Below are positions 3,974-24,863 of a stretch of DNA of 42,640 nt, in pieces. Source of the stretch: a virus. A program made the position numbers and the translations under genes. The notes beneath the pieces were generated by a model. That model worked only from the letters and a program-made list of their open reading frames with translations. It was not told where the DNA came from and made no database searches. The DNA lies in the IMG/VR virus record IMGVR_UViG_3300021420_000071, positions 1 to 42,640 of that record. One strand, 5' to 3'. Positions within the stretch are counted from its first letter, which is position 1; each line of letters begins with the position of its first letter.

Positions 3974-4102
3974 ATGCTCCTCAAATTCCTAATAACCTTT
4001 TTCGCTGTGGGGTGTGTGGTTTCCTTATATAAGAGGGACTGGATTATGTTACTCTATTTTTTCGGTGCATTTTGTCTAAATCTTGCGGTGTATCTAAAAT
4101 GA
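3974..4102 (+). CDS. Small membrane protein, 42 aa
   Basis: The frame reads MLLKFLITFFAVGCVVSLYK, a short charged turn RDW, and a second hydrophobic stretch MLLYFFGAFCLNLAVYL. This is a two-helix hairpin. Its stop overlaps the methyltransferase start (ATGA at 4099-4102), so the two are probably translationally coupled. No recognisable family. Confidence 0.55.
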   Translation: MLLKFLITFFAVGCVVSLYKRDWIMLLYFFGAFCLNLAVYLK

Positions 4103-4929
4103 AATTAGGAAGCCTTTTCAGTGGTTGTGGTGGTATGGACTTAGGACTTGAAAAGGCAGGAATGAGGTGTGTATGGCAAGTGGAAAAAATGCCGTTAGCT
4201 TTAAGCCTTTTAACGAGGCATTGGCCAGAAGTCCCGAAACATACGGAGATATTGACATTCTGTGCGGGGGTTGGCCATGTCAAGACAATTCAATCGCTGG
4301 CACGAGGAAAGGCCATGCGGGAGAAAAATCAGGCCTCTTCTCGGAGTTTTGCCGAGTGTTGCGAATATTTAATCCACGCTGGTTTATTGGAGAGAATGTT
4401 CCAGGGTTATTATCCGTCAATGCCGGAAAAGACTTTTGCCAAGTGCTCTCCATCTTCCAAGACATCGGGTATGGCGTATCGTGGCGAATACTTGATAGTC
4501 AATACTTCGGAGTGCCCCAACAACGCCGTCGCCTCTTCATTATCGGATATTTTGGAAACCCATGTCCACCAGAAATATTATTTGAGCCAAAAGGCGATAC
4601 AGGGAATCATAAGAAGGTCCAAACAATGGGGAAGGTCGGGTTATGTCTTTCTACAAGAGATGGTCAACGGCAAGACCCAAGTACGGAAAACATTGTCGCT
4701 TTCTGTCTTGGAACAGATTTACGGGGGCAACCCTATAAACTCCACACAGAAACTCTTTGTGCAACAACAGTCAGAACTCAAGAAGCTGGCAACCGAATAC
4801 AAGGGAATATTGCTACGACGATTGACCCCGAAGGAAAAGGAACGATTGCAGGGATTGCCAGAAAATTGGACAGTGCCAGAGGAGTTGTTATTGGTAATGC
4901 AGTCACAGTCCAAGTTGCGGAATGGATAG
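4099..4929 (+). CDS. C5 cytosine methyltransferase, frame A (motifs I and IX; beta-subunit-like)
   Basis: ATG 4099 opens 276 codons. Residues 7-21 (FSGCGGMDLGLEKAG) are motif I, the S-adenosylmethionine-binding loop of C5 methyltransferases. Homology continues to HWPEVPKH near 4242. Motif IX, RRLTPKEKERLQGLPENWT, is at 4816-4872. Motifs IV, VI, VIII and X are absent from this frame and lie in the overlapping frame B. Between them, frame A reads YLIVNTSECPNNAVASSLSD, then HQKYYLSQKAIQGIIRR, a pattern I recall from phage proteins next to methyltransferase genes. In M.EcoHK31I a beta polypeptide with motif IX is read from an alternate frame inside the alpha gene, and this looks similar. Alternatives are a frameshift-damaged pseudogene or sequence errors, but the long stop-free frame argues for real coding. 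Confidence 0.65.
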   Translation: MKLGSLFSGCGGMDLGLEKAGMRCVWQVEKMPLALSLLTRHWPEVPKHTEILTFCAGVGHVKTIQSLARGKAMREKNQASSRSFAECCEYLIHAGLLERMFQGYYPSMPEKTFAKCSPSSKTSGMAYRGEYLIVNTSECPNNAVASSLSDILETHVHQKYYLSQKAIQGIIRRSKQWGRSGYVFLQEMVNGKTQVRKTLSLSVLEQIYGGNPINSTQKLFVQQQSELKKLATEYKGILLRRLTPKEKERLQGLPENWTVPEELLLVMQSQSKLRNG

Positions 4930-4982
4930 GGAAAAGGATAATAAATTATGAAACACAAATACCACCTCAAAAATTCTCTTAG
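4173..4982 (+). CDS. C5 cytosine methyltransferase, frame B (motifs IV, VI, VIII, X; alpha-like)
   Basis: This frame overlaps frame A almost entirely. It carries the catalytic motif IV GGWPCQDNSIAG (the Cys codon is at 4278-4280), motif VI ENVPG (4392-4406), motif VIII FGVPQQRRRLF (4506-4538), a variable target-recognition-like segment, and motif X GNAVTVQVAEWIG (4893-4931). It lacks motif I and motif IX, which are in frame A. It could start at ATG 4173 (GAGG five bases upstream) or GTG 4167, or be reached from frame A by a -1 shift near 4242, where the homology crosses frames. No good slippery heptamer is visible there. The product would methylate cytosine in phage DNA, probably for protection against restriction. 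Confidence 0.65.
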   Translation: MASGKNAVSFKPFNEALARSPETYGDIDILCGGWPCQDNSIAGTRKGHAGEKSGLFSEFCRVLRIFNPRWFIGENVPGLLSVNAGKDFCQVLSIFQDIGYGVSWRILDSQYFGVPQQRRRLFIIGYFGNPCPPEILFEPKGDTGNHKKVQTMGKVGLCLSTRDGQRQDPSTENIVAFCLGTDLRGQPYKLHTETLCATTVRTQEAGNRIQGNIATTIDPEGKGTIAGIARKLDSARGVVIGNAVTVQVAEWIGKRIINYETQIPPQKFS

Positions 4983-5344: not shown

Positions 5345-5450
5345 ATGTAAAAGATGTCTACATTTATGGATTCCAAGAAAAATAGAAATTCGTCAATGTC
5401 CTAAATGTAAAAGCGCATATTGGGATAAAAATGCCAAAAGGTATATTTAA
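5319..5450 (+). CDS. Small zinc-ribbon protein, 43 aa
   Basis: The frame reads MKTKINKLKCKRCLHLWIPR, then IRQCPKCKSAYWD. This CxxC-X(n)-CxxC layout is a compact zinc ribbon of the kind often encoded immediately before HNH genes in phages. It overlaps the upstream gene by 26 bases and the HNH gene by 20, supporting coupled translation. The role is probably nucleic-acid binding, by inference. Confidence 0.6.
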   Translation: MKTKINKLKCKRCLHLWIPRKIEIRQCPKCKSAYWDKNAKRYI

Positions 5451-6003
5451 AAGAACAAAACATCATTTAAGAAATTTTAGAATAAAAGTTTCTGGAGAAA
5501 GAAATTGTAATTGGCGAGGAGGTAAATGTATACACACAGATGGATATATTACAATTCTTACTAAAAATAGATATAAAAATGGAAAGAAAAAATATATCTT
5601 AGAGCATAGATTAGTAATGCAAGAATATATTGGAAGAAAATTAAATAATAAAGAAGTTGTTCATCATATTAATGGTATTAAGTCAGATAATAGAATTGAA
5701 AATTTAAAATTATTTTCTTCCGTTTCAGAACATACAAAACATCATGGTTTTAGAAATGGGAATACAAAAATGAAAAGAAGATGTTTTAAATGCAAAAGAA
5801 TAAAATTTCTATATTTATTTCCAAAAAATATAGGTAAAACTTTAGATAAAAGTTATTTATGTAAGAAATGTACAAAAATAATTAATGGAATTAAATATAA
5901 TAATCCAATTTTTAGAGAAAAAATGTTGAAATTAAAAAAACAACAATATTGGAAAAGAAAAAATGCAAAACTTACTTCAAAAACTGCAAACGGCGCTAAG
6001 TAG
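5431..6003 (+). CDS. HNH homing endonuclease
   Basis: This 190-residue protein is very AT-rich and lysine-rich. The HNH core is EHRLVMQEYIGRKLNNKEVV followed by HHINGIKSDNRIENLKL, the signature of phage HNH endonucleases related to homing enzymes. A C-terminal CFKCKRIKF and CKKCTKI pair gives a second zinc-binding region. An N-terminal RNCNWRGGK block resembles other stand-alone HNH genes. It would cut DNA at a site lacking the insertion and promote its own spread. It was probably acquired together with the small zinc-ribbon gene before it. Confidence 0.8.
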   Translation: MPKGIFKRTKHHLRNFRIKVSGERNCNWRGGKCIHTDGYITILTKNRYKNGKKKYILEHRLVMQEYIGRKLNNKEVVHHINGIKSDNRIENLKLFSSVSEHTKHHGFRNGNTKMKRRCFKCKRIKFLYLFPKNIGKTLDKSYLCKKCTKIINGIKYNNPIFREKMLKLKKQQYWKRKNAKLTSKTANGAK

Positions 6004-24194: not shown

Positions 24195-24863
24195 TTACTC
24201 CCTCATTAATAAAAACTCTTCAACGGTTTTATTATTTTTACTACAATTACAACGCTCACAAGCTATTTCTAAATTTTCATATTCATTTGAACCGCCACGA
24301 CTTATTGGAATTTTATGTTCTACTTCATCTTTACCAAAAGGAATTGATTCTAAACATAAATAACAAGTTAATGTGCCATATTCTTTAATATTATCTTCGT
24401 ATACCATTTGAACTACTTTTAATATTTCAGGATTCTTTCTTCCTCCACGTCTTTGAGAACCATAACATTTGTTTTTAAAATTCAACCAATCCCTATTTTT
24501 TTTAACATATTCACGATAGTATTCTTTATATCTTTCTGGATTCCCTAATTTCCACTTACGTCTGTATTCTATAAAATATTTTCTATTTTCTAAATTCTTT
24601 TTATGAATTAAATCTTTATGACTATTTCTATATTTCTTCCATCTCTTTAAACATTCTTCTCTGTGACTGTAATACCATTCCCTTGCCACTTTCCTACGAT
24701 ATTCCTTACCTTTTTCGCTATTTAACCATTTTTCTTGTCTTATCCTATTCTTTTCTTTAAAAATATTAGTCTTTCTATATTCCTTAAAATAATTTTTAGA
24801 ATAATTTTTAATGTGTTCTTTATTATTTAATTTCCATTGTTTCATATAATCGGACTTATTCAT
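24195..24863 (-). CDS. HNH endonuclease, 222 aa
   Basis: A basic, Tyr/Lys/Arg-rich N-terminal 140 residues (SEKGKEYRRKVAREWYYSHR) leads to the HNH core. It has CYLC, KDEVEHKIPISRGGSNEYEN, and then ACERCNCSKNNKT. These supply the two CxxC zinc knuckles and the catalytic H. This is a stand-alone homing-type enzyme inserted between tail-associated genes. Its base composition is AT-rich compared with its neighbours. It overlaps the upstream gene by 4 bases. Confidence 0.8.
   Translation of the reverse strand: MNKSDYMKQWKLNNKEHIKNYSKNYFKEYRKTNIFKEKNRIRQEKWLNSEKGKEYRRKVAREWYYSHREECLKRWKKYRNSHKDLIHKKNLENRKYFIEYRRKWKLGNPERYKEYYREYVKKNRDWLNFKNKCYGSQRRGGRKNPEILKVVQMVYEDNIKEYGTLTCYLCLESIPFGKDEVEHKIPISRGGSNEYENLEIACERCNCSKNNKTVEEFLLMRE

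Follow-up and report, generated by a model that had tools for sequence, protein, structure and literature searches.

Results

The window, by which we mean the whole stretch of 42,640 bases analysed here, is a virus record with phage genes for a primase-like helicase, a portal, a major head protein and a terminase. On its + strand, two frames are open across one stretch of DNA between 4099 and 4982. The frame A gene runs from an ATG at 4099 to a stop at 4927-4929 (4099-4929, 276 codons), and the frame B gene runs from an ATG at 4173 to a stop at 4980-4982 (4173-4982, 269 codons). The frame A protein begins with MKLGSLFSGCGGMDLG and carries RRLTPKEKERLQGLPENWT toward its end, while the frame B protein contains DILCGGWPCQDNS followed by ENVPG, FGVPQQRRR and GNAVTV. 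Upstream of them on the same strand lies a small ORF of 42 aa (3974-4102), read directly from the DNA, with two hydrophobic stretches (MLLKFLITFFAVGCVVSLYKRDWIMLLYFFGAFCLNLAVYLK). There are also HNH endonuclease-like ORFs, likely mobile genes, at 5431-6003 (+) and 24195-24863 (-), one of which is located shortly downstream of the methyltransferase.

Each frame alone matched the Pfam family DNA_methylase, PF00145 (A, 8e-18; B, 1.5e-39), and the motif set of the cytosine-5 methyltransferases (C5-MTases) of this family, namely I, IV (PCQ), VI (ENV), VIII (QxRxR), IX and X, is complete in the A+B pair. Frame A, which is the +1 frame relative to B, holds motif I FSGCGG of the AdoMet site (4117-4134, +), the motif II glutamate (E29 of A; 4183-4185, +), which is a residue with a functional role in C5-MTases, and the motif III region T-E-I within HTEI (4243-4251, +). 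These are followed by an overprinted, beta-like middle part with YYLSQKAxxGIIRR and by motif IX RRLTPKEKERLQGLP (4816-4860, +). The signature of the middle part, YYLSQKAIQGIIRR (4576-4617, +), is common to the +1 ORFs of monolithic relatives. Frame B starts with a new N-terminal extension (residues 1-26, a predicted helix) and holds motif IV PCQ with the catalytic cysteine (4275-4283, +; its C at 4278), motif VI ENV (4392-4400, +), the motif VIII region FGVPQQRRRL (4506-4535, +) and motif X GNAVTV (4893-4910, +). The initial annotation of this DNA had located motifs I, IV, VI, VIII, IX and X, every one of them at a correct coordinate. It had also remarked that neither chain has all the motifs and that motif I lies in the beta-like frame; this holds, and motifs II and III lie in frame A, too.

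Such a double open frame of about 270 codons had been regarded as unlikely by chance, and our simulations agree with this. When the B protein was fixed and its own synonymous codons were permuted, only 1 of 20,000 trials left the +1 frame without a stop over 252 codons, and that frame contained 6.8 stops on average. When codons were drawn from the usage of the genome, again with the B protein fixed, none of 20,000 trials did so. The +2 frame over the overlap contains 12 stops. On the other hand, the stretch is not especially AT-rich, as had been stated, since its GC content is about 46%.

Scans of viral contigs, confirmed by tblastn, provided three relatives with the same layout (L002, L084 and L231), whose identity to the window is 49-56% for A and 53-58% for B. 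Instead of the canonical order on a single polypeptide, the motifs are distributed over two frames in all four members, with I in +1, IV in 0, IX in +1 and X in 0. The start codon of B is inside A in each of them. The spacing is exactly 158 nt between motifs I and IV and exactly 77 nt between IX and X in 4/4 members, and it varies from 538 to 613 nt between IV and IX. The motif II glutamate is invariant in the four, and motif III has E in the window and D (HTDI) in the other three. In none of L002, L084 and L231 is frame A full of stops, a pattern that the initial annotation had named as counting against a two-frame enzyme. When cellular genomes were scanned with an alignment of three A proteins, the matches listed were partial ones to motif I and included no window-type gene. 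A DNA pattern scan with the doubly constrained PKHT/PETY stretch found L084, L002 and four stretches that did not classify as window-type.

The similarity within frame A is mosaic. The window and L002 share WQVEKMP at the N-terminus, and L084 and L231 share KGQIEIMP; in the middle part, the window groups with L084, and L002 with L231. This suggests recombination inside the gene.

Selection on the two frames was evaluated by comparing the similarity in one frame with a synonymous-codon null given the protein of the other. The similarity of A given B exceeded the null in all pairs (z 6.2-12.6, 0/1000 permutations), and so did that of B given A in all pairs of the four members (z 9.4-12.4). For the B extension 5' of motif IV (residues 1-26) the signal given A was weaker (z 1.7-4.3), being significant in most pairs. 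Since codons shared by descent could mimic a signal of selection, non-overlapping MTases served as a control, and they gave a mean z of 0.1 with 1 of 86 pairs above 3. The suppression of synonymous change that had been suggested as a check is seen as well. In the region of motifs IV-VIII, the third-position difference of B averages 0.44, whereas non-overlapping C5-MTases with about as much protein identity have 0.62-0.63, and the value for identical four-fold-type codons is 0.52 in B vs 0.73-0.75 in non-overlapping C5-MTases. The excess similarity of A can come in part from shared codon ancestry, but the third-position control argues against this as the whole cause. Judged from these comparisons, both frames are under selection at the protein level.

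With regard to translation, the stop TGA of the small upstream ORF and the ATG of frame A overlap as ATGA, which points to coupled translation of A and the small ORF; in L084, an upstream ORF likewise ends immediately 5' of the A start. The A start codon is ATG or TTG across the four members, and a clear Shine-Dalgarno-like sequence precedes it in L002 and L231, while the A start of the window is without its own. The B start codon is ATG in the window, L002 and L231 and GTG in L084, with GAGG, GGAG, GGGCGGG or AGGAG located 5-9 nt 5' of it (spacing by eye). The GTG of L084 has a weak Shine-Dalgarno-like sequence and comes directly after an in-frame stop. In the window, GAGG (4164-4167, +) lies 5 nt 5' of the B start, and the last in-frame stop of frame B before this start is TGA (4149-4151, +), so that a ribosome starting at the ATG of A could read B only by shifting 3' of this TGA. 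In all four sequences, frame A was free of X XXY YYZ heptamers from its start to motif IV, and it had no conserved homopolymer run before this motif.

Structural comparison placed the two chains on complementary parts of the same enzymes. In a profile search of solved structures, B aligned to residues 66-172 of M.HhaI and 58-161 of M.HaeIII, corresponding to motifs IV-VIII, with a further, weak match to M.HhaI at its motif X helix, and A aligned to residues 1-26 (motif I) and 256-293 (motif IX) of M.HaeIII. AlphaFold2 was run on single chains with alignments of the window and locus proteins, and the two models were of middling confidence (pLDDT 62 and 64; pTM 0.58 and 0.32). In A, residues 1-50 were predicted as beta-alpha-beta-alpha with pLDDT of 85-95, and a helical pair around YYLSQKA...GIIRR reached about 80, the remainder being poor. 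In B, the IV-VIII core reached 75-93 and the overprinted N-terminal helix about 70; a C-terminal helix was also predicted, and the middle was poor. Foldseek with these models retrieved M.HhaI and M.HaeIII on top for both chains, with E 4e-8 for B; the match of A was weak, with E 0.012 across 48-55 columns.

In a tree of the IV-VIII region, the four members were monophyletic (100/99). Their sister group (99/94) consisted of nine genes (L003, L004, L006, L009, L016, L032, L234, L235 and L241), monolithic as far as classifiable; the frames of most of them were read, and motif I or IX went unrecognised in L032, L235 and L241. The sister of the window lineage is thus a group of monolithic genes with an overlapping +1 ORF and not the L007 or the L236/L263 groups. 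In nearly all members of the wider, 70-sequence phage clade, the +1 frame of this region is open for about 115-380 codons, and the +1 ORF of other C5-MTases is shorter than about 50 codons with few exceptions. In the monolithic groups, the +1 ORF is selected as a protein (mean z 5.5-6.7 vs 0.1 in controls). An open and selected +1 ORF over motifs IV-VIII was observed in L007, L009, L016, L088, L093, L232, L233, L236, L273 and most of the 70-sequence clade, and it typically ends with SLSDVLE..YYLSPKA.AGILRRAEKRG. As an overlapping gene across motifs IV-VIII, the +1 ORF is thus old in this clade of phages.

We examined what the middle part of A resembles. Protein-family libraries gave it no function beyond the PHROG label 'DNA methyltransferase': phrog_16143 matched it in L002 (6e-11) and in the window (5.8e-6), and phrog_1008, with the same label, matched the +1 ORFs of the lineage marked by NPxWVEWLMGFP. 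Both families are restricted to the beta-like part, whereas A of the window carries motifs I-III in addition. We considered whether the middle part could be an independent domain joined to proteins of the Dam type (H45, H75 and H76) and rejected this, because these matches turned out to be the +1 frame of monolithic C5-MTases with the Dam part in the main frame. One-frame fusions of a C5-MTase with a Dam-type adenine MTase were observed in an Enterobacter plasmid (L082:1412-3460) and a Cronobacter phage (L083:1427-3937), both with a +1 overlapping ORF inside the C5 part.

Discussion

The most probable reading of this locus, to which we assign a probability of about 0.82, is that A and B are two separately initiated subunits of one DNA cytosine-5 methyltransferase encoded by overlapping genes. 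Translation of A would begin at ATG 4099, with probable coupling to the small upstream ORF, and A would supply the AdoMet-binding half (motifs I-III) together with motif IX. B would start independently at ATG 4173 inside A and would supply the catalytic half (PCQ, ENV and QxRxR) together with motif X. Neither the AdoMet site nor the active site would be complete until the two chains have assembled into a complex. We infer that A and B would be translated together in the cell, form a heterodimer and methylate DNA. Orphan C5-MTases of phages usually protect the phage DNA from host restriction, and the enzyme presumably has such a role in this phage, too, for example shielding its DNA.

The initial annotation had left a choice between a heterodimer and a shift near 4242. 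Such a -1 frameshift from A to B would produce one protein with motifs I-VIII and X, restoring an alpha chain like that of M.EcoHK31I, and unshifted A would serve as beta. This is very unlikely, though the window, L002 and L084 share identical DNA at the PKHT/PETY overlap (CCCGAAACATAC), and six consecutive A are present near 4184. This A run is missing in L002 and L231, and none of the four sequences has a slippery heptamer before motif IV. Moreover, most pairs show selection on the 26-residue extension of B itself when A is given, and 4/4 members provide B with a separate start codon, which in L084 comes right after an in-frame stop. With a start at 4173 and GAGG 5 nt upstream, B needs no shift near 4242, and separate initiation is the simplest reading because of the B starts in the four members and the lack of a -1 slippery heptamer. 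The heterodimer and the analogy with M.EcoHK31I are, on the other hand, well supported by the layout kept in four divergent contigs and by the selection on both frames.

It is also improbable that A and B are both real proteins but not parts of one enzyme, A being for instance an AdoMet-binding regulator or an anti-restriction protein and B having another partner or being inactive. Genes for monolithic MTases, too, have the middle part of A as a conserved and selected +1 ORF, which implies that this ORF has some role beyond carrying motif IX. However, A keeps motifs I, II and IX, exactly those that B is without, and the two chains align to complementary parts of the same enzymes. There is also a precedent in M.EcoHK31I, whose overlapping chain is needed for activity according to PMC3404938 (citing Lee et al. 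1995). A monolithic gene broken by decay or by assembly errors, in which indels moved motifs between frames and left a dead product, is highly implausible. The I-IV and IX-X spacings, shorter by 3n+1 nt than in the monolithic sisters, do look like indels, and the sporadic single cases L133 and L365 may be such genes. But the layout and spacings are alike in four divergent contigs that form a monophyletic group, both frames are open and selected, and all catalytic motifs are intact. Indel errors at three places are unlikely because the spacing is identical in four independent contigs, and we rejected sequencing error or decay for the identical I-IV and IX-X spacing of these contigs.

The two-subunit enzyme that we favour could have originated from a monolithic gene with the overlap. 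Compared with the monolithic sisters, the spacing of the window lineage is 158 vs 183-207 nt for I-IV and 77 vs 93-111 nt for IX-X. Since each is shorter by 3n+1 nt, the frame would shift at each place, and shortenings at III/IV and IX/X could have joined motifs I-III and IX to the +1 frame. The order of these frame-joining steps is what we infer rather than observe. At even odds, the product of the ancient +1 gene may be a partner that is always made together with the enzyme, so that motifs can move between frames. Motif IX would have moved in this way in several lineages, and in the window lineage motifs I-III would have moved with it, yielding an enzyme with its cofactor-binding and catalytic halves encoded in two frames of the same bases. 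Among the loci classified, the window lineage is apparently the only conserved group with motifs I-III in the +1 frame. In the NPxWVEWLMGFP lineage, there are single cases with motifs I and IX in the +1 frame, namely L133:2501-3370 (= L309) and L365, each of which reflects either an independent window-type layout or an indel.

Two-chain C5-MTases have precedents. M.EaeI is an alpha/beta C5-methyltransferase like M.EcoHK31I, and the two ORFs of M.AquI are tandem and not overprinted. PMC3404938 describes M.EcoHK31I and M.AquI as natural two-chain C5-MTases, with motifs I-VIII and X in alpha and only IX in beta for M.EcoHK31I. M.AquI is split in the variable region, its two chains keeping the order I-VIII / IX-X (PMC3404938). 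Like M.EcoHK31I, the window pair consists of two polypeptides from overlapping frames with IX in the +1 chain and X in the main chain, but the +1 chain of the window lineage also holds motifs I-III in 4/4 members, which puts the AdoMet half and the catalytic half on different chains. We set the pair apart from the M.EcoHK31I type because its main chain is without motifs I-III. The pair resembles M.AquI as a two-subunit C5-methyltransferase, whereas its motifs are interleaved between the chains.

The closest parallel to the division of the window pair is man-made. Engineered fragments of M.MpeI complement each other in E. coli, strongly as [1-61]+[62-395] and partially as [280-61]+[62-279] (PMC5944983). 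The M.MpeI and M.SssI fragments (cp62 / cp58, 'Type B') are cut at the III/IV point, about as in the window pair. The permuted M.MpeI pair keeps motif X with the I-III piece, while the window pair is a split and not a permutation. Those authors remark that natural permuted enzymes make no use of the III/IV point (PMC5944983). Our search of the literature, mostly without subscription journals, found no description of the window arrangement or of the wide spread of the +1 ORF, which is weak evidence of novelty.

The M.EcoHK31I layout, with I and X in the main frame and IX in +1, was found in the L007 group, L236, L263 and the large NPxWVEWLMGFP lineage, and the L007-type relatives also have the IX-X spacing of 77 nt. 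With redundant sequences included, 79 of the first loci classified had this layout, and so did 68/79 among the matches listed in a later scan. In the NPxWVEWLMGFP lineage, motif IX was in the +1 frame of L271, L273, L274, L286, L294, L300, L303, L113, L121 and L310-L388, among the matches listed. An M.EcoHK31I-like layout is very common in viral contigs and phages.

Finally, in most overlapping genes, the product of one frame is unrelated and frequently accessory. At this locus, A and B appear to be complementary halves of a single enzyme, and each base would therefore be constrained twice by the same reaction. Split C5-MTases are in use for targeted DNA methylation, and the window pair may be a natural C5-methyltransferase split at III/IV, which had been only engineered previously. 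Previously known from one or two enzymes, the layout of M.EcoHK31I is widespread in phages. Moreover, there is selection on the overlapping ORF even in genes in which it has no known motif, and its role and the movement of motifs between frames should be directly testable.
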